Shown one piece after another: positions 624-15,276 of a DNA stretch of 64,000 nt (position 1 is its first letter; every line of letters starts with the position of its first letter). The translations under genes were made by a program, and so were the position numbers. Under the pieces are notes generated by a model. The model saw only the letters and a program-made list of their open reading frames with translations. It was not told the DNA's origin and did no database searches. Source of the stretch: Pseudogulbenkiania ferrooxidans 2002 (lineage in GTDB: Bacteria > Pseudomonadota > Gammaproteobacteria > Burkholderiales > Chromobacteriaceae); NCBI RefSeq assembly GCF_000174355.1, contig NZ_ACIS01000004.1, positions 190,924-254,923 on the forward strand. The letters run 5' to 3'.

Positions 624-3200
<2,577 letters not shown>

Positions 3201-3235
3201 GCACGCGACCGCCAGCCTGAAGGCGGGTGACGTGA

Positions 3236-3289
3236 ACCCCCGGTTCGGTGACGTGTTTCAAGACACGTCGTCAGGACCGGGGGTCTTTT
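3236..3289 (+). terminator. clpB terminator (nested hairpin)
   Basis: Outer 9-bp perfect stem ACCCCCGGT/ACCGGGGGT encloses a second hairpin (GACGTGT/ACACGTC). TCTTTT follows. It ends the clpB transcript and isolates the EAL-gene promoter downstream. Confidence 0.8.
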
Positions 3290-3316
3290 GCTTCCTGGCT
3301 CGGGCGGGGCGGGCAG

Positions 3317-3333
3317 TGCACTGTTGCAGTGCA
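3317..3333. promoter_or_regulatory. NtrC-like enhancer dyad upstream of the EAL gene
   Basis: TGCAC-N7-GTGCA, a perfect dyad with the spacing of the enterobacterial NtrC site. Its centre is about 104 bp upstream of the start site expected from the sigma-54 promoter at 3403-3418, a normal enhancer distance. Similar dyads lie upstream of the nrt and MFS promoters in this window. Confidence 0.6.
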
Positions 3334-3402
3334 ATATGCGCCAATGCCGGGCGAATGGCGGGTGCTATCCAGTCATTTTGACGGCATGGCGGAGCGGGAC
3401 GC

Positions 3403-3418
3403 TGGCACAGCGATTGCT
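3403..3418 (+). promoter_or_regulatory. Sigma-54 promoter of the EAL-domain gene
   Basis: TGGCAC-N5-TTGCT matches the sigma-54 -24/-12 consensus at every invariant base, including GG and GC at the required spacing. The transcript would start near 3429 and run directly into the two-hairpin leader. The same promoter type precedes the three nitrate-assimilation units. Confidence 0.85.
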
Positions 3419-3431
3419 AAATAGCCGGCAG

Positions 3432-3507
3432 GCGGACCAACGGCGGTCCGCACTTGAAAGGGACAACGGCGTCCCCGGGGCTGACCGGCCCGGGGACGCC
3501 TTTTTTT
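3432..3507 (+). promoter_or_regulatory. NasT/ANTAR-type antiterminator leader of the EAL-domain gene
   Basis: Hairpin P1 is GCGGACC/GGTCCGC (3432-3451) with hexaloop AACGGC. Hairpin P2 is GGGAC/GTCCC (3460-3475), also with loop AACGGC. Both loops carry A at position 1 and G at position 4, the ANTAR recognition rule. The 3' arm of P2 is part of the 5' arm of a perfect 12-bp terminator stem (3468-3479 with 3489-3500), followed by seven T residues (3501-3507). P2 and terminator are therefore mutually exclusive, so a protein that stabilises P2 would allow read-through. The start codon lies only 6 nt after the T run. Confidence 0.88.
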
Positions 3508-3513
3508 GCCACT

Positions 3514-4797
3514 ATGCAATCACTCTCTGCTTTGCCGCTGTCGTCGCCCGACCTGTGCCTGCCGCTGGGCGACATCACGCGCTCCATCCTTCCCGAAGCC
3601 GGCCGTGCCATCGGCCGCTTCCGTGAGCTGTGCCTGGACAGCCACTTTCAGCCGATCTACAGCCTGGCGCACAGCCGCATCGTCGGCCACGAGGCGCTGC
3701 TGCGGGCGCGGCAGGCCAACGGCAGCCCGGTGGGGCCGCTGCAGGCGCTGGCCAGCGCGCAAGGCGATGAGGAGCGGGTTTTCCTCGACCGGCTGTGCCG
3801 TGCCCTGCACCTCGCCAACTATCAGCGCACCGGGGAGCTGGACGACGCTCAGACCTGGCTGTTCCTCAATGTGTCGACCCAGGTGGTGGTGCGCACCGGC
3901 CAGTCCGAGCCGTTCTTCGCCGAACTGCTGGCGCACAGCGCTTTTCCCGCCCGGCGCGTGGTGGTGGAAGTCCTCGAGGGTACCATTCCCGACCAATCGC
4001 TGCTGAGCGAGGCGGTGGCCAACTATCGCAACATGGGCTGCCTGGTGGCGTTGGACGATTTCGGGGCTGATGCCTCCAACATCGAGCGCATCTGGCGTGC
4101 CGCGCCGGACATCGTCAAGCTCGACCGCAAGCTGATCGCCGCCGCTGAGCACTCGCCGCGGGCGCGGCGCGTGCTGCCGGCCACGGTGGCGCTGATCCAC
4201 GAGGCGGGCAGCCTGGCGCTGATCGAGGGGGTCGAGAACGAGGAGCAGGCCGCCATCGCGCTGGACAGTGACGCCGACCTTGTGCAGGGCTTTCACTTCG
4301 CGCGGCCGGCGCCAGAGCCGCTGCGCCATGGCGACGGCGGCATCGCTGCGCTGTCCGCCCGGCACGCCGCCGCGCAGGCCTCGGCGCGCCAGCGCCGGGA
4401 ATTGCAGGTCTACGCCAGCGCCTTCCAGCGCGCGGCGCAGCGGCTGTGGACCGAGCAGGGCCTGGCGTCGGCCTGCGCCGAGCTGTTGGCGATGCCGCAA
4501 GTGGACCGCTGTTACCTGATCGGCGCGGACGGGGTGCAGATCGGCGCCAGCGTGCTGCGTGCCGACCACGAACCGGCGTCCTCGCGCTTCGCCCCGCTGG
4601 AGGAGGCGCAGGGCGCCAACTGGGCGCGCAAACCCTACCACTACCGTGCCCTGGCCCACCCCGGTCAGCTGCAAGTCAGCAGCCCCTACCTGTCGGTCGC
4701 CAACTCCCGGCTGTGCGTGACGCTGTCGCTGACGGTGCCTTTGGCGCAGGGGCAGCGGGTGCTGTGTTGCGACATCAAACTGGAAGGGCTGGCCTGA
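3514..4797 (+). CDS. EAL-domain c-di-GMP phosphodiesterase with C-terminal sensor-like domain, under NasT-type control
   Basis: A 427-residue soluble protein. Residues about 35-265 are an EAL domain with the catalytic set present: EALLR at 60-64, N and S in LFLNVS, E in VVVEVLEG, the DD pair at 181-182 in ALDDFGAD, K202 in VKLDR, E238 in IEGVE, and QGF. Hydrolysis of c-di-GMP to pGpG is therefore likely. The C-terminal ~150 residues resemble the Cache/PAS-like domain of YkuI-type EAL proteins and could bind a ligand. There are no membrane segments. ATG at 3514 is the only ATG before the domain but has no clear ribosome-binding site; the frame is also open upstream through the leader. Placing a c-di-GMP enzyme behind this leader is unexpected. 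Confidence 0.85.
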   Translation: MQSLSALPLSSPDLCLPLGDITRSILPEAGRAIGRFRELCLDSHFQPIYSLAHSRIVGHEALLRARQANGSPVGPLQALASAQGDEERVFLDRLCRALHLANYQRTGELDDAQTWLFLNVSTQVVVRTGQSEPFFAELLAHSAFPARRVVVEVLEGTIPDQSLLSEAVANYRNMGCLVALDDFGADASNIERIWRAAPDIVKLDRKLIAAAEHSPRARRVLPATVALIHEAGSLALIEGVENEEQAAIALDSDADLVQGFHFARPAPEPLRHGDGGIAALSARHAAAQASARQRRELQVYASAFQRAAQRLWTEQGLASACAELLAMPQVDRCYLIGADGVQIGASVLRADHEPASSRFAPLEEAQGANWARKPYHYRALAHPGQLQVSSPYLSVANSRLCVTLSLTVPLAQGQRVLCCDIKLEGLA

Positions 4798-4961
4798 CGA
4801 TGGCTCCGTGCGCCAGGACGTCAGGCGAGAGATCTTCGGCCGGGCCGGCGGCGTAAGCATCAGGCTTAACAATTGTTAGTACTTCTTGACAGCGCCCGGC
4901 GGCGATCTTGGTTATGATGCCGCCGTTGATGATTACTGCACTAGTCTTAAGGAACACAGCC

Positions 4962-5264
4962 ATGAACAAGAACCGTTGGATGGTCGCCCTGCTGGCCGGC
5001 AGCCTGTTGCTGACCGGCTCGGCCTACGCCATGGACAGCAACGCCGTGCTCGGCGGCGCGCTGGGCGGTGGTGCCGGCGCGGCGGTCGGTTCGGCATTGG
5101 GTGGGCGGGATGGCGCGATGATCGGCGCGGCGGCCGGTGCCGCCATCGGTACCGGTGTCGCAACCCGGCCCGAACCGCGTCGCACCATCGTAGAACATCG
5201 TTATGTCGAAGAGCGCGGCTGGAAGCGCGGGCACCGCCACCATCACCACCGCTACGACGATTAA
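4962..5264 (+). CDS. Small secreted glycine-zipper protein
   Basis: 100 residues. A lysine/arginine start and hydrophobic core end in AYA, giving a signal peptide cut at about residue 24. Next comes a glycine/alanine-rich glycine-zipper stretch with repeated GGALGGGAG- and GAAAGAAIG-like units, then a basic histidine-rich tail (HRHHHHR). Such proteins insert into or associate with the outer membrane; no precise role can be given. AAGGA at 4949-4953 supports the ATG. The histidine tail might bind metal, which is only a guess. A strong terminator follows. Confidence 0.75.
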   Translation: MNKNRWMVALLAGSLLLTGSAYAMDSNAVLGGALGGGAGAAVGSALGGRDGAMIGAAAGAAIGTGVATRPEPRRTIVEHRYVEERGWKRGHRHHHHRYDD

Positions 5265-5964: not shown

Positions 5965-6127
5965 AAAGTAAGCCCACGCTGCGTTGGGTCTCCGCCGTAT
6001 CGAGCCGTTTGCCTTTTGGGGGCCCGAGACTGGTTGCACGCAGATCATGGACAGGTAGTTTGCATGGAAAGAGCATCGACCCGGCATGGTGCTTGCTTCA
6101 CCTTTTCTGTGCAATAGGGAGATGACA

Positions 6128-6706
6128 GTGCTGACGGTAATGCTGGTTAACGATGGATCGGGCAAGGCAGCTGCGCTCAAGGAGGCGCTGACGCAGGCCG
6201 GCGTGCGCGTGATCGCGGAGGTGGAGGTGTCGCTGCGGCTGGGTGAGATGATCGACAGCATCCGCCCCGACATCGTGCTGATCGACTCCGATGCCCCATC
6301 GCGCGACATGCTGGAGCACGTCTGCGTCAGCAGCGCGCACAGCGAGCGGCCGGTGGTGATGTTCACCGACGACGCCCGCCGCGACACCATCCGAGCCGCC
6401 CTGGCCGCCGGGGTGGCGGCCTACGTGGTGGGCGATGTGGTGCCTGAGCGTATCCAGCCGCTGCTGGAGGTGGCGATAGAGCGTTATTCGCTCGACAAGG
6501 AGCGGCGCGAGGAGCTGGACGACATGCGCCAGCGCCTGGCCGACCGTCAGGTGGTGGAGAAGGCCAAGGGCTTGCTGATGCAGATGAAGGGCATCGGTGA
6601 GGACGAGGCCTACCGCCAGCTGCGCGAGCGCGCGATGAAGTCGCAGAAGAAGCTCGGCGACGTGGCGCGTGAGGTGGTGGAGCTGGCCAACTGGCTCAAA
6701 GGCTGA
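6128..6706 (+). CDS. nasT: NasT-type ANTAR response regulator (transcription antiterminator)
   Basis: 192 residues: an N-terminal receiver-like domain (LTVMLVNDGS..., IVLIDSDAPS, VVMFTDDA) and a C-terminal ANTAR domain (about 125-190: RQVVEKAKGLLMQMKGIGEDEAYRQLRERAM). ANTAR proteins bind a pair of hexaloop hairpins in leader RNAs and prevent termination; NasT does so for nitrate-assimilation operons. I place the start at GTG 6128: AGGGAG at 6116-6121 is then 6 nt away, and the N-terminus matches known NasT proteins. The ATG at 6122 would directly abut that site. Four leaders of the expected form lie at 3.4, 6.8, 10.3 and 15.2 kb. No nasS, the usual inhibitor gene, is next to it. Confidence 0.92.
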   Translation: MLTVMLVNDGSGKAAALKEALTQAGVRVIAEVEVSLRLGEMIDSIRPDIVLIDSDAPSRDMLEHVCVSSAHSERPVVMFTDDARRDTIRAALAAGVAAYVVGDVVPERIQPLLEVAIERYSLDKERREELDDMRQRLADRQVVEKAKGLLMQMKGIGEDEAYRQLRERAMKSQKKLGDVAREVVELANWLKG

Positions 6707-6724
6707 GCGTGCGCTGGTGCAGGG

Positions 6725-6741
6725 CGCACGTGTGCAGTGCA
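6725..6741. promoter_or_regulatory. NtrC-like dyad upstream of the nitrate ABC importer operon
   Basis: CGCAC-N7-GTGCA, one mismatch from the TGCAC-N7-GTGCA dyad. The centre lies about 86 bp upstream of the start site expected for the sigma-54 promoter at 6793-6808. Confidence 0.5.
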
Positions 6742-6792
6742 CAAAAGGAGTGGATGTAAAAAATTTCCCTTTTAAAACAGTTGATTGACCTC

Positions 6793-6808
6793 TGGCACGG
6801 TAGTTGCG
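6793..6808 (+). promoter_or_regulatory. Sigma-54 promoter of the nrt operon
   Basis: TGGCAC-N5-TTGC, a full -24/-12 match, placed just ahead of the antiterminator leader and 145 bp before the first nrt start codon. Confidence 0.88.
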
Positions 6809-6823
6809 TATAGCGTGACGACC

Positions 6824-6914
6824 GGGTAAGTCGCCAACGGCGGCGGCGCTACCCAGACGGGCAACGGCGCCTGTCGACCCGACTCCGACACGGAGCGGGA
6901 CGACAGGCGTTTTT
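6824..6914 (+). promoter_or_regulatory. NasT/ANTAR antiterminator leader of the nrt operon
   Basis: P1 has stem GTCGCC/GGCGGC (6830-6847, one G-U pair) with loop AACGGC, closed further out by GGGTA/TACCC. P2 is GACGGGC/GCCTGTC (6856-6875, one G-U pair), again with loop AACGGC. The terminator stem CGCCTGTCG/CGACAGGCG (6868-6876 with 6901-6909, extra inner hairpins) uses the 3' arm of P2 and is followed by five T residues. Confidence 0.88.
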
Positions 6915-6953
6915 CGTTTTCGGCTGTTTTTTTCTGCAAAGAGGGAGAAGAGA

Positions 6954-8234
6954 ATGGATAACAAGCGCACATCGATCGACAGCAGTTCACCGGCGGTGCC
7001 GGATCGTCGCGATTTTCTCAAGGGAGCACTGACCGTCATGGGGTCCACTACTTTGCTGGCCGCCTTGCCGGCCGGTATCGCCACTAGCGCCTGGGCTGCC
7101 GGCAGCGACAAGCCGGAAAAAACTGAAGTCAGAGTCGGCTTCATCCCTCTGACCGATTGCGCCTCGGTGATCGTGGCTTCCAAGATGGGCTTCGACAAGA
7201 AGTACGGCATCACCATCGTGCCGTCCAAGGAGGCGAGCTGGGCTGCGGTGCGCGACAAGATGGTCAACGGCGAGCTGGACGCCGCCCACGTGCTGTACGG
7301 CCTGATGTACGGCGTGCACCTGGGCATCGGCGGTCCGAAGAAGGACATGGCGGTACTGATGACGCTGAACCAGAACGGCCAGGGCATCACGCTCTCCAAC
7401 CAGCTCAAGACCAAGGGCGTGACCTCCGGCCCGGCGCTCGCCAAGCTGATCAAGGCCGAGCCGCGCGAATACACCTTCGCCCAGACCTTCCCCACCGGCA
7501 CCCACGCCATGTGGCTCTACTACTGGCTGGCCGCGCACGGCGTCAACCCGATGAGCGACGTCAAGACCATCGTGGTGCCGCCGCCGCAGATGGTGGCCAA
7601 CATGCGCGTCGACAATATGGACGGCTACTGCGTCGGTGAACCGTGGAACGCCCGCGCCATCGCCGACAACGTCGGCTTTACCGTGGCTACCACCCAGCAG
7701 ATCTGGGCCGGTCACCCGGAAAAGGTGCTGGGCACGACCGGCGACTGGGTCAAGCAGAATCCGAACACCGCGCGCGCGCTGATCGCGGCGCTGCTGGAAG
7801 CCTCGCGCTACATCGACGACGTCAAGAACCGCGCCAGCGTGGCCAAGCTGATCGCCGACAAGGCCTACGTCAACGCCCCGGAGCCGGTCATCGAGGGACG
7901 CTTCCTGGGCACCTACGAAGACGGCCTGGGCAAGAAGTGGCAAGACCCCCACCTGATGAAGTTCTTCGACGAGGGCAAGGTCAACTTCCCGTATCTCTCC
8001 GACGGCATGTGGTTCCTGACCCAGCACAAGCGCTGGGGCTTGCTGAAGGCCGATCCGGACTACCTGGGCGTGGCCCGACAGATCAACCAGATCGCGCTCT
8101 ACAAGGAAGCCGCTGCGCTCGCCAAGGTCGCGCTGCCGCGTTCCGATATGCGCTCCGCCAAGCTGATCGACGGCGTGGTGTGGGACGGCAAGGACCCGAA
8201 AGGCTACGCCGCTTCGTTCAAGATTCGCGCCTGA
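6954..8234 (+). CDS. nrtA: Nitrate ABC transporter, periplasmic substrate-binding protein (Tat-exported)
   Basis: 426 residues of the NrtA/CmpA/NasF family, which captures nitrate (or nitrite) in the periplasm and delivers it to the NrtB-type permease. A twin-arginine signal is visible (RR at 18-19 in DRRDFLKG, hydrophobic core, cleavage after about residue 48 at AWA), so it is exported folded. This export signal argues against its being NasS, the cytosolic nitrate sensor of the same fold. The body carries VRVGFIPLTDCA, HVLYGLMYGVHLG and CVGEPWNARA, typical of the family. First gene of a three-gene operon behind a sigma-54 promoter and antiterminator. Confidence 0.93.
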   Translation: MDNKRTSIDSSSPAVPDRRDFLKGALTVMGSTTLLAALPAGIATSAWAAGSDKPEKTEVRVGFIPLTDCASVIVASKMGFDKKYGITIVPSKEASWAAVRDKMVNGELDAAHVLYGLMYGVHLGIGGPKKDMAVLMTLNQNGQGITLSNQLKTKGVTSGPALAKLIKAEPREYTFAQTFPTGTHAMWLYYWLAAHGVNPMSDVKTIVVPPPQMVANMRVDNMDGYCVGEPWNARAIADNVGFTVATTQQIWAGHPEKVLGTTGDWVKQNPNTARALIAALLEASRYIDDVKNRASVAKLIADKAYVNAPEPVIEGRFLGTYEDGLGKKWQDPHLMKFFDEGKVNFPYLSDGMWFLTQHKRWGLLKADPDYLGVARQINQIALYKEAAALAKVALPRSDMRSAKLIDGVVWDGKDPKGYAASFKIRA

Positions 8235-10248: not shown

Positions 10249-10264
10249 TGGCACGCTAGTTGCT
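10249..10264 (+). promoter_or_regulatory. Sigma-54 promoter of the MFS nitrate transporter
   Basis: TGGCAC-N5-TTGCT, matching all invariant -24/-12 bases. A long (~185 nt) leader follows before the start codon. Confidence 0.87.
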
Positions 10265-10299
10265 ATATCACTCTCGAACAATTCAGCTCCGGCACACCG

Positions 10300-10421
10300 G
10301 GCCAACGGAGGCCAGGTTCGCCGGATACCAGGGGAAGACCAATGTGGGTCTTTCGCCTGAGACGGACAACGGCGTCCGCTACCACGCAGCCAACACTGCG
10401 CGGCGGCGGACGTTTTTTTTT
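10300..10421 (+). promoter_or_regulatory. NasT/ANTAR antiterminator leader of the MFS transporter
   Basis: P1 is GGCC/GGCC (10300-10313) with loop AACGGA. P2 is CGGAC/GTCCG (10363-10378) with loop AACGGC. Between them is an extra hairpin GAAGACC/GGTCTTT (about 10334-10353). The terminator CGTCCGC/GCGGACG (10373-10379 with 10406-10412) takes over the 3' arm of P2 and is followed by nine T residues. The spacing between P1 and P2 is the longest of the four leaders. Confidence 0.82.
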
Positions 10422-10460: not shown

Positions 10461-11672
10461 ATGAACAAGAGTTTCTGGAAGGCCGGGCACTGGCCCACTC
10501 TGCTGGCCGCGTTTCTCTACTTCGACTTGAGCTTCATGGTCTGGTACATCCTCGGGCCCTTGGCGATCCAGATCGCCGACAGCCTGTCGCTGTCCGCGCA
10601 GCAGCGCGGCATGATGGTGGCCACGCCGATCCTGGCGGGCGCGGTGCTACGTTTCGCCATTGGCCTGATGGTGGACCGCCTGTCGCCCAAGACCGCCGGC
10701 ATCGTCGGCCAGGTGGTGGTGATCGCGGCTCTGGGCACCGCCTGGCACTTCGGCATCCACTCCTTCCACCAGGCGCTGCTGCTGGGCCTGTTCCTCGGCG
10801 TGGCCGGCGCCTCGTTCGCGGTGTCGCTGCCGCTGGCGTCGCAGTGGTATCCGCCGGAGCACCAGGGCAAGGCGATGGGGATCGCCGGCGCCGGCAACTC
10901 CGGCACGGTGTTCGCGGCCTTGCTGGCACCGGGGCTGGCCTCGGTCTACGGCTGGGAGAACGTGTTCGGCTTCGCGCTGATTCCGCTGTCGATCGTGTTC
11001 GTGGTGTTCTGTCTGTTGGCCAAGAATGCGCCCAACCGCGCGCCGGCCAAGTCGCTGGCCGATTACCTCAAGGTGCTGGGCGACAAGGACAGCTGGTGGT
11101 TCATGTTCTTCTACAGCATGACCTTCGGCGGCTTCGTCGGCCTTGCCGGCGCCTTGCCGGGCTACTTCCACGACCAGTACGGTCTCAACGCGGTGACCGC
11201 CGGCTACTACACCGCCGCCTGCGTGTTCGCCGGTTCGATGATGCGCCCGCTGGGCGGCGCGCTGGCCGACCGCGTCGGCGGCATCCGCACCCTGCTGGTG
11301 ATGTACACCATCGCCGCGCTGATGTTGGGCGTGGTCGGCTTCAACCTGCCGCAGGCCTACGCCGCGCTGGCGCTGTTTGTCGGTGCCATGCTGGCGCTCG
11401 GTTGCGGTAACGGCGCGGTGTTCCAGCTGGTGCCGCAGCGCTTCCGCAAGGAAATCGGCGTGATGACCGGCCTGGTCGGCATGGCGGGCGGCATCGGCGG
11501 CTTCCTGCTGGCGGCGGGTCTGGGCTTCGTCAAGCAATCCACCGGCAACTACCAGATCGGCCTGTGGCTGTTCGCCAGCCTGGGCCTGGTGGCCTGGTTC
11601 GGCCTGCACAGCGTGAAGCTGCGCTGGCGCACCACCTGGGGCGCGGCCAGCGTGACTTCGGCCCGGGTATAG
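10461..11672 (+). CDS. MFS nitrate/nitrite transporter (NarK/NasA family)
   Basis: 403-residue major facilitator protein of the nitrate/nitrite porter family, with about 12 membrane helices. Family marks: FDLSFMVWYILGPLA in helix 1, the nitrate-signature glycine-rich stretch GIAGAGNSGTVFAALL in helix 5, and GMAGGIGGFLLAAGLG in helix 11. It imports nitrate and/or exports nitrite across the inner membrane; with the ABC system nearby, this cell has two uptake routes. ATG 10461 follows GAGAAGG. Often called nasA or narK; I leave the symbol empty because nasA is used below for the reductase. Confidence 0.93.
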   Translation: MNKSFWKAGHWPTLLAAFLYFDLSFMVWYILGPLAIQIADSLSLSAQQRGMMVATPILAGAVLRFAIGLMVDRLSPKTAGIVGQVVVIAALGTAWHFGIHSFHQALLLGLFLGVAGASFAVSLPLASQWYPPEHQGKAMGIAGAGNSGTVFAALLAPGLASVYGWENVFGFALIPLSIVFVVFCLLAKNAPNRAPAKSLADYLKVLGDKDSWWFMFFYSMTFGGFVGLAGALPGYFHDQYGLNAVTAGYYTAACVFAGSMMRPLGGALADRVGGIRTLLVMYTIAALMLGVVGFNLPQAYAALALFVGAMLALGCGNGAVFQLVPQRFRKEIGVMTGLVGMAGGIGGFLLAAGLGFVKQSTGNYQIGLWLFASLGLVAWFGLHSVKLRWRTTWGAASVTSARV

Positions 11673-11832: not shown

Positions 11833-13503
11833 ATGTCGCTCGCCCTGACCGTCGGTCACGCCACCGATGCCGGCCCCAAGCCGCGCAACGAGGATGCGCT
11901 GGCCTGCGTGACGCCGGAGGCCGGCCTCTTGACCAGCAAGGGCGCGCTGTTCGTGCTGGCCGACGGCGTGTCGAGCTGCGCCGACGGCAAGCTCGCGGCC
12001 CAGTCCAGCGTGCGCGCGGTGGCGGCGGACTACTACGCCACGCCGGAAACCTGGGAGGTCGGCACCGCGCTCGACCGCCTGCTGACCGCGCATAACCGCT
12101 GGCTGCGCTCGCAGGGCAAGACGCTGGTGGCGACGCTCACCGCGCTGGTGTTGCGCGGCCGGCGCTTCACCGTGGCGCACGTCGGCGACAGCCGGCTCTA
12201 CCGTCTCACCGGGGGGCGGCTGTTCTGCCTCACCACCGATCACGTCTGGGACGAGCCCTCGATGCGCCACGTGCTCAAGCGCGCCATGGGGCTCGACGAG
12301 CACGTCATGGCCGACTTCCTCGACGGCGACGTGGCCGAGGGCGACGTGTTCCTGCTGGTCAGCGATGGCGTATGGGGGCCGCTGCCCGACAAGCGCCTGG
12401 ACGAAGTGCTGCGGCTGCACGTCGACCCGCAGCGCGCGGCCCAGGTGCTGGTGGAGGAGGCCATCGCCGCCGGTTCCGGCGACAACCTGTCGGCCATCGT
12501 GCTGCGCGTCGACGGCCTGCCTTCGGCCAACCTCGGCGACGAGCTGGCGCGCGGCGCCTTCCAGTCGCTGCCACCGCGCCTCAAGCCGGGGCAGGAGTTC
12601 GACGGCCTCACCGTGGAGGCGGTGCTGAACGACGCCCCGTCCGGGCTTGCCTACCGCGTGCTCGACAGCGCGGGCAAGCGCTGGGTGATGAAGACGCTGC
12701 CGCCGACCTTGGCCGGCGACAGCCAGGCGGAGCAGGCGCTGCTGGTCGAGGAGTGGCTGCAGAAACGCCTGACCGCGCATTACTTCGCCGAGGTCAAACC
12801 GCTGCCGGCACGCCAGCATCTCTACTACCTGCTGCGCTGGTACGCCGGCGAAAACCTGGCGGAACGGCGCCAGCGCGAAGGCGGTGGCATCGGTCCGAGC
12901 GAGGTGGTGAAGATCGGCCTGCGCCTGACGCGCGCGCTGGCCGCCTTGCACCGGCTCAACATCCTGCATCGCGACGTCAAGCCGGAAAACATCCACATCG
13001 ATCACGACGACAAGCTGCGCCTCTTGGACCTGGGCGTGGCGTACTGCCCCGGGCTCACCGTCGACCGCGACGGCGCGGTGCCGGGCACGCCGAGCTACAT
13101 GGCGCCGGAGCTGTTCGAGGGCGCTTCGGCCAACGTGCGCACCGATCTCTACGCCGCCGGCGTGACGCTGTACTGGCTGTTGACCGGTCACTACCCCTAC
13201 GGCGAGGTGGAACCGTTCCAGCATCCCCGTTTCGGTACCCCGGAGCTGCCCACGCGCTACCGGCCGGACCTGCCGCCGTGGCTGGAGAACGTCTTGCTCA
13301 AGGCGGTGGAGCGCGATCCGGCACGCCGCTTCGAAACTGCGGAAGAACTGCTGCTGGCGCTGGAAAAGGGCGACGCGCAGTCGCTCGCGGTGCGCCGCCG
13401 CGTGCCGTGGGCCGAGCGCTCCCCGCTCAAACTGTGGCGCGCCATCGCCCTGGTGTCGCTGCTGCTCAACCTGGTGCTGGTGTACCTGCTGCTGGTGCTC
13501 TGA
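11833..13503 (+). CDS. Bifunctional PP2C phosphatase-Ser/Thr protein kinase, membrane anchored
   Basis: 556 residues. Residues 1-225 are a PP2C-type phosphatase (PRNEDA, DGVSSCADG, HVGDSRLYRL, LLVSDGVW, GSGDNLS, all metal-site motifs). Residues about 250-520 are a Hanks-type kinase with the lysine in WVMKTLP, catalytic loop HRDVKPEN at about 379-386, DLG in place of DFG at about 399, and GTPSYMAPEL. One membrane helix forms the extreme C-terminus, leaving both enzymes in the cytosol. Such fusions sit next to nitrate-assimilation genes in pseudomonads too; the target is unknown. It lies 160 bp after the transporter and may be in its transcript. Confidence 0.92.
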   Translation: MSLALTVGHATDAGPKPRNEDALACVTPEAGLLTSKGALFVLADGVSSCADGKLAAQSSVRAVAADYYATPETWEVGTALDRLLTAHNRWLRSQGKTLVATLTALVLRGRRFTVAHVGDSRLYRLTGGRLFCLTTDHVWDEPSMRHVLKRAMGLDEHVMADFLDGDVAEGDVFLLVSDGVWGPLPDKRLDEVLRLHVDPQRAAQVLVEEAIAAGSGDNLSAIVLRVDGLPSANLGDELARGAFQSLPPRLKPGQEFDGLTVEAVLNDAPSGLAYRVLDSAGKRWVMKTLPPTLAGDSQAEQALLVEEWLQKRLTAHYFAEVKPLPARQHLYYLLRWYAGENLAERRQREGGGIGPSEVVKIGLRLTRALAALHRLNILHRDVKPENIHIDHDDKLRLLDLGVAYCPGLTVDRDGAVPGTPSYMAPELFEGASANVRTDLYAAGVTLYWLLTGHYPYGEVEPFQHPRFGTPELPTRYRPDLPPWLENVLLKAVERDPARRFETAEELLLALEKGDAQSLAVRRRVPWAERSPLKLWRAIALVSLLLNLVLVYLLLVL

Positions 13504-15156: not shown

Positions 15157-15172
15157 TGGCACGGCACTTGCT
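15157..15172 (+). promoter_or_regulatory. Sigma-54 promoter of nirB-nirD-nasA-cobA
   Basis: TGGCAC-N5-TTGCT, all invariant bases present, 164 bp before the nirB start codon with an antiterminator leader between. Apart from the nearby EamA gene end and the weak dyad, 14950-15156 holds nothing I recognise. Confidence 0.87.
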
Positions 15173-15200
15173 AGTAATACAGCAGACAATTTTGCTCGGT

Positions 15201-15276
15201 TTGCCAATGGCGGTGAAGCGGGTAAGGACAAAGAGGTCCGTTCAGCATGGGGAATCCATGGGAACGGACTTTTTTT
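15201..15276 (+). promoter_or_regulatory. NasT/ANTAR antiterminator leader of nirB
   Basis: P1 is TTGCC/GGTGA (15201-15216, two G-U pairs) with loop AATGGC. P2 is GGAC/GTCC (15226-15239) with loop AAAGAG. Both loops keep A at 1 and G at 4. The terminator GTCCGTTC/GAACGGAC (15236-15243 with 15262-15269, inner CATGG/CCATG) re-uses the P2 3' arm and ends in seven T residues. It is the most divergent of the four leaders in loop sequence. Confidence 0.82.

Follow-up and report, generated by a model that had tools for sequence, protein, structure and literature searches.

A predicted NasT/ANTAR-type antitermination leader precedes an EAL-domain gene in Pseudogulbenkiania: a candidate link between nitrate and c-di-GMP

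In the window, i.e. the whole 64-kb stretch of DNA analysed here, a gene for an EAL-domain protein is preceded by a leader which is predicted, with good support, to be of the NasT/ANTAR type. The switch as such is known, and the class of gene behind it would be new. NasT leaders are familiar as switches of metabolic genes; in this case, the gene downstream would encode a second-messenger enzyme, so that an RNA responding to a nutrient would act directly on c-di-GMP levels and the supply of nitrate would bear on whether cells swim or settle. The case, which is computational throughout, also illustrates a way in which an antitermination regulon can acquire a new kind of target. The following features are relevant to it:

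3236-3290, + strand: terminator of clpB (fold z -4.3, then UCUUUU)
3317-3333, no strand assigned: NtrC-like dyad TGCACT-N5-AGTGCA, from the sequence, fitting GCAC-N7-GTGC
3403-3418, + strand: sigma-54 -24/-12 promoter, exact match to TGGCACN5TTGCW
3432-3451, + strand: ANTAR hairpin 1, 7 bp, loop AACGGC at 3439-3444
3460-3475, + strand: ANTAR hairpin 2 (antiterminator), 5 bp, loop AACGGC at 3465-3470
3468-3507, + strand: intrinsic terminator, 12-bp stem at 3468-3500 plus T7, overlapping hairpin 2
3514-4797, + strand: EAL-domain protein of 427 aa with a C-terminal domain (Pfam EAL PF00563, E 9e-41, 140 bits)
6122-6706, + strand: NasT, receiver plus ANTAR (Pfam ANTAR, run on 6086-6706)
6793-6914, + strand: sister leader of nrtA (pattern matches; nrtA at 6954-8234)
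10249-10421, + strand: sister leader of narK (pattern matches; narK at 10461-11672)
15157-15276, + strand: sister leader of nirB (pattern matches; nirB from 15336)

A preliminary description of this DNA had proposed the dyad, the sigma-54 promoter, two AACGGC hairpins and a 12-bp terminator excluding the second hairpin, all of which were recovered at the positions given above. Its assignment of the region to the NasT/ANTAR leaders is likewise upheld by the Rfam score, by the finding that the genome encodes one ANTAR protein, by the presence of the leader in all three genomes of the genus and by the mutually exclusive terminator. In the covariance-model search, the Rfam narK RNA (RF03032) matched at 3404-3475 with 53.2 bits against a cut-off of 43.2 (E 3.8e-7); this was the sole match in the window above the cut-off of any Rfam family, and no second narK RNA above cut-off was obtained genome-wide (150 scored of 1117 candidates). 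The sigma-54 promoter by itself is weak evidence, because its pattern with one mismatch gave five matches versus 3.1 expected, while the loop-plus-T-run pattern gave eight, some of them overlapping, versus 0.46 expected. GCAC-N7-GTGC sites occur five times in the + strand text of the window, and three of them precede sigma-54 sites, namely those at 3403, 6793 and 10249, with starts 66-85 bp further 5'. Scanning of 3100-5000 returned no sigma-70-type site, and a simple terminator scan of the same interval listed none either; here, the EAL terminator was missed because the scan takes loops of 3-8, while its loop is 9. The terminator of clpB would shield the EAL unit from transcription coming from upstream.

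Folding of the leader yields two alternative states. Up to 3475, both hairpins form, while in the leader folded to 3507 hairpin 1 is kept and the terminator replaces hairpin 2, the two latter elements being mutually exclusive with 3468-3475 as their common bases. Since the terminator stem with its seven T reaches -32 kcal/mol (z -4.9), compared with -7.5 kcal/mol for the competing hairpin 2 alone, termination would be the default and a protein would have to hold hairpin 2. Such a switch corresponds to the ANTAR mechanism set out in PMC3369931, in which the A at position 1 and the G at position 4 of the loops are important. The T-run ends 6 nt from the ATG of the EAL gene, and GCCACT (3508-3513) alone lies between them; by eye, no Shine-Dalgarno sequence is visible for this gene, unlike for the three sister genes, where one can be seen. 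All three species preserve this tight spacing. A possible alternative start, the in-frame TTG at 3454, from which translation would read through the terminator, was considered and rejected, as it has no Shine-Dalgarno sequence and as, in the genome G001, the TTG is out of frame and a stop lies in frame upstream of the ATG.

NasT, for which a longer start at 6086 is possible, is encoded 1.3 kb downstream of the EAL gene and constitutes the single ANTAR (PF03861) match in the genome. Leaders of the present type were found by pattern at four places in the genome, all within 12 kb. The loops of the three sister leaders are looser than those of the EAL leader (e.g. AAAGAG, AACGGA), and no GCAC-N7-GTGC lies upstream of the sister leader at 15157 in the + strand text of the 64 kb. 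The genome contains one rpoN and, above cut-off, one ntrC. No clear NasS nitrate sensor emerged from a profile search of the genome with PF13379 (NMT1_2). The strongest match, at 353 bits, is NrtA, with a Tat-type (twin-arginine) signal by eye, and neither of two lower matches (55.5 and 39.4 bits, both above the Pfam cut-off) was identified as NasS, one of them resembling, by eye, a binding protein that is exported and has an ABC ATPase as its neighbour. In the window itself (6086-6954), nasT stands without an adjacent NasS gene. The same cluster also carries a gene for a fused PP2C phosphatase and protein kinase (11833-13503), located between narK and nirB.

Within the genus, the window EAL protein is 94-95% identical to its counterpart in P. 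subflava DSM 22618, and identity goes down to 83% across Pseudogulbenkiania with the leader still kept. The latter, including the sigma-54 site and both AACGGC loops, is present in all three genomes, where the EAL gene always follows clpB and, in both genomes whose contig extends that far, precedes nasT. Linker bases change between the species, while the leader and the spacing to the ATG stay. In the alignment of the three species, 20 of 21 cells are paired in hairpin 1, with one two-sided change, all 15 in hairpin 2, and the terminator has standard pairs in 36 of 36; stem changes hence keep pairing except for one outer pair. For these three sequences, the pair changes were reached by 179 of 500 shuffles for the hairpins and 168 of 500 for the terminator, so the case for the leader rests on conservation, not on covariation. 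The NtrC dyad is present in two of the three species (it is kept in G002) and degenerate in G001.

How widespread such leaders are was assessed in four surveys with two patterns, one pattern per survey, on overlapping genome sets. Matches were obtained in 18 of 61 genomes of the family, 63 of 399 of the order, 35 of 369 of the class and 30 of 349 of the phylum, compared with 1/61, 5/399, 7/369 and 7/349 for the reversed-pattern controls (counted by eye from tables). Among the fetched loci, 180 places were merged into 138 distinct leaders on the basis of a common 40-mer, a tally in which neither the nirB leader of the window nor the place G432:C27 is included. The test for dual hairpins and a T-run was passed by 95 of the 138, 93 of them with an identified next gene, while 24 of the 43 failing leaders have a nitrate-type next gene and 19 no recognised one. 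A nitrate ABC transporter follows 58 of the 95 leaders, NirB 18 and an MFS transporter 11 (six at ≥65% identity to NarK, and five at 25-27%, which are loosely classed as such); a molybdopterin nitrate reductase type, a tetrapyrrole methylase, a chemoreceptor and a porin-like protein follow one leader each, and two leaders run into a contig end. An EAL gene comes next in 2 of 95, corresponding to three genomes, two of which have a common leader stretch, and all three are Pseudogulbenkiania; the search for the same pairing among relatives thus found it in all three genomes of the genus and, in the surveys, nowhere outside it. Given this distribution, a nitrate regulon was probably already in place when the EAL gene was added to it. 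Further cases may exist because the patterns miss looser leaders. EAL relatives were examined at 41 loci. Five of these, from three genomes and including some duplicate records, are Pseudogulbenkiania and carry the leader, while the 36 loci from outside the genus (36-52% identity, likewise with some duplicates) lack the sigma-54 pattern as well as any AACGGC hairpin within approximately 450 nt upstream.

Two of the single next genes deserve a description of their own. In G924, a NasT-type leader with loops AACGAC and AACGGC and a terminator precedes a gene for a methyl-accepting chemotaxis protein (L301:968-2155, - strand), i.e. a second behavioural gene behind a NasT-type switch. An nrtA leader follows about 2 kb downstream. 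Among 59 genomes of its genus searched at E up to 1e-60, this chemoreceptor is found in one, namely G924 itself. In G651, a leader of the same type is located before a gene for an outer-membrane porin-like protein (Pfam Alginate_exp; L229:256-1494, - strand), perhaps a nitrate porin.

Concerning the EAL protein, it had been described as a c-di-GMP hydrolase with all catalytic EAL residues. The positions which we take to be the EAL signature residues, E60, N119, E152, E155, D181, D182, K202, E238, E241 and Q258, are all present in a comparison with RocR and in an alignment, among them E155, presumably the glutamate stabilising loop 6, and the second signature Asp, which is Asn in the YkuI-like rows L063 and L091. 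The residues thus bear the description out, but loop 6 is altered. It reads DDFGADASN (DDFGADSSN in G001), while all nine homologues from outside the genus have DDFG[AV]GHSN, the two YkuI-like rows being set apart; the difference comprises residues 186-187 and is common to all three Pseudogulbenkiania sequences. Judged from sequence, the altered loop may lower the activity of the protein. As the signature residues are present but loop 6 is altered, hydrolysis of c-di-GMP is likely, not assured. Moreover, 40 first-look candidates for EAL relatives were obtained from the genome, of which 14 were scored, and a single EAL enzyme therefore need not shift the global c-di-GMP pool.

The structure model of the EAL protein has a mean pLDDT of 78.5. 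Among the best 50 matches of each of two structure searches, no entry except YkuI of Bacillus subtilis (2bas, 2w27) exceeds 300 aligned residues, its alignment comprising both the EAL and the C-terminal domain; the other entries listed align over the EAL domain. The alignments with YkuI span 418-421 columns in one search and 345-350 residues (Z 23.6-23.9) in the other. Identity is about 20%, and the whole-chain rmsd of 15-17 Å means that domain placement differs between the two proteins. A Pfam search of the last 165 residues with E up to 10 yielded no family, and hence no match to the YkuI C-terminal model by which members of the YkuI family would be marked; the likeness is one of architecture only. 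For the label of a Cache/PAS-like domain given to this part of the protein earlier, the resemblance to YkuI makes it plausible and the Pfam result leaves it short of proof.

Taken together, we consider it probable that the EAL gene belongs to the NasT regulon, nitrate under nitrogen limitation leading to read-through, phosphodiesterase synthesis and lower c-di-GMP. Under nitrogen limitation, NtrC and sigma-54 would start transcription at about 3428-3430. As long as active NasT is missing, hairpin 1 and the terminator would form and the RNA would fall short of the start codon by 6 nt. NasT in its active form, the activating signal of which is presumably nitrate as in other bacteria, would bind and hold both AACGGC hairpins, whereby the terminator would be blocked and RNA polymerase could enter the gene. 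Its product would most likely hydrolyse c-di-GMP as a phosphodiesterase and carry a domain of the sensory type at its C-terminus. The simplest reading is therefore that nitrogen limitation combined with nitrate would turn on the phosphodiesterase alongside nitrate uptake and reduction, with a putative effect on behaviour (motile versus sessile).

Several other explanations have to be weighed against this one. A chance assembly, in which the sigma-54-like site, the two hairpins and the terminator are meaningless together, could draw on a sigma-54 pattern that is not rare at one mismatch and on the background of the survey patterns in the reversed controls, but it is already very unlikely in view of the Rfam E-value, the conservation of the leader in three species and the three sister leaders on nitrate genes of the same cluster. 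It is also conceivable, yet quite improbable, that a copied nitrate leader landed before the EAL gene, which would merely be carried along without any adaptive role. Restriction of the pairing to one genus, the missing Shine-Dalgarno sequence and the loss of the NtrC dyad in one species would all fit such a history. However, the leader and its spacing to the ATG have been kept at 83% protein identity while linker bases changed, and changes in the stems preserve pairing in all but one outer pair.

A further explanation accepts the leader as a working NasT target and places the difference in the protein, which would bind c-di-GMP as a receptor, or hydrolyse it very weakly, rather than act as a phosphodiesterase. 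On this view, loop 6 changed within the lineage, and the protein would now sense either c-di-GMP or some ligand of the C-terminal domain. The deviating residues 186-187 in loop 6 point in this direction, as does the fact that, among the structures listed, YkuI is the only chain well aligned beyond the EAL domain; YkuI binds c-di-GMP and is not known to hydrolyse it. Against a mere receptor speaks the retention of all signature residues, including the second Asp that is Asn in L063 and L091. Besides, a figure legend of PMC12900916 counts EAL domains whose signatures deviate in part among the functional ones. On balance, we regard the receptor as an unlikely reading, albeit one with some weight, and retain the NasT-controlled phosphodiesterase.

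Among known systems, NasR/NasT leaders have been described for Klebsiella nasF, Paracoccus nasA, Pseudomonas nirBD ('NalA') and Bradyrhizobium nap/nos (PMC3369931, PMC5424462, PMC6759348, PMC12830290). With these, as far as the cited accounts describe them, and with RF03032, the EAL leader shares hairpins of the kind recognised by ANTAR, A1/G4 hexaloops and a second hairpin competing with a terminator; with NalA, as described in the same accounts, it would share the sigma-54/NtrC start. The leaders covered there drive nitrate/nitrite metabolism, whereas the EAL leader precedes a gene of c-di-GMP turnover. In Burkholderia pseudomallei, nitrate increases a phosphodiesterase transcript and lowers c-di-GMP and biofilm (NarX/NarL, cdpA; PMC5524735). 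In contrast to the present case, the sections of that paper cited here propose two-component control, and a leader RNA is absent from their account. An ntrC mutant of Burkholderia cenocepacia H111 showed lowered expression of both an EAL gene and nasT (PMC5491218), and the portion of the paper concerned does not mention a NasT leader of this EAL gene. No report of a NasT leader before a c-di-GMP gene was found in open-licence papers. The earlier remark that no described case of the pairing was known agrees with this literature, but NasT and c-di-GMP as such have already been linked in the reverse direction (PMC12830290, in the section cited below).

For P. putida, a review states that NasT is bound by c-di-GMP, which makes its interaction with the nirBD leader weaker (Nie et al. 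2024, as related in section 5.1 of PMC12830290). The players NasT and c-di-GMP are hence the same; going by that section, c-di-GMP acts on NasT in P. putida, while in Pseudogulbenkiania NasT would act on a c-di-GMP enzyme. If this reverse action applied here as well, a feedback loop could be tested in an environmental denitrifier which PMC5017806, in the part referred to, connects with nitrate and iron cycling. In that case, synthesis of the phosphodiesterase under NasT control would remove a compound that inhibits NasT itself. A closed positive loop, in which NasT antiterminates the phosphodiesterase gene, c-di-GMP falls and NasT is freed, thereby committing the cell to nitrate assimilation and the motile state, is possible, if rather doubtful. 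The five c-di-GMP contact residues of NasT we take to be R70, Q72, D123, K127 and R140. At these positions, the NasT proteins of L329-L331, which are probably Pseudomonas-like, have R, Q, D, R and R, while an alignment with L330 gives A, S, D, R and R for the NasT of the window, i.e. three of the five are kept, with one Arg for Lys.
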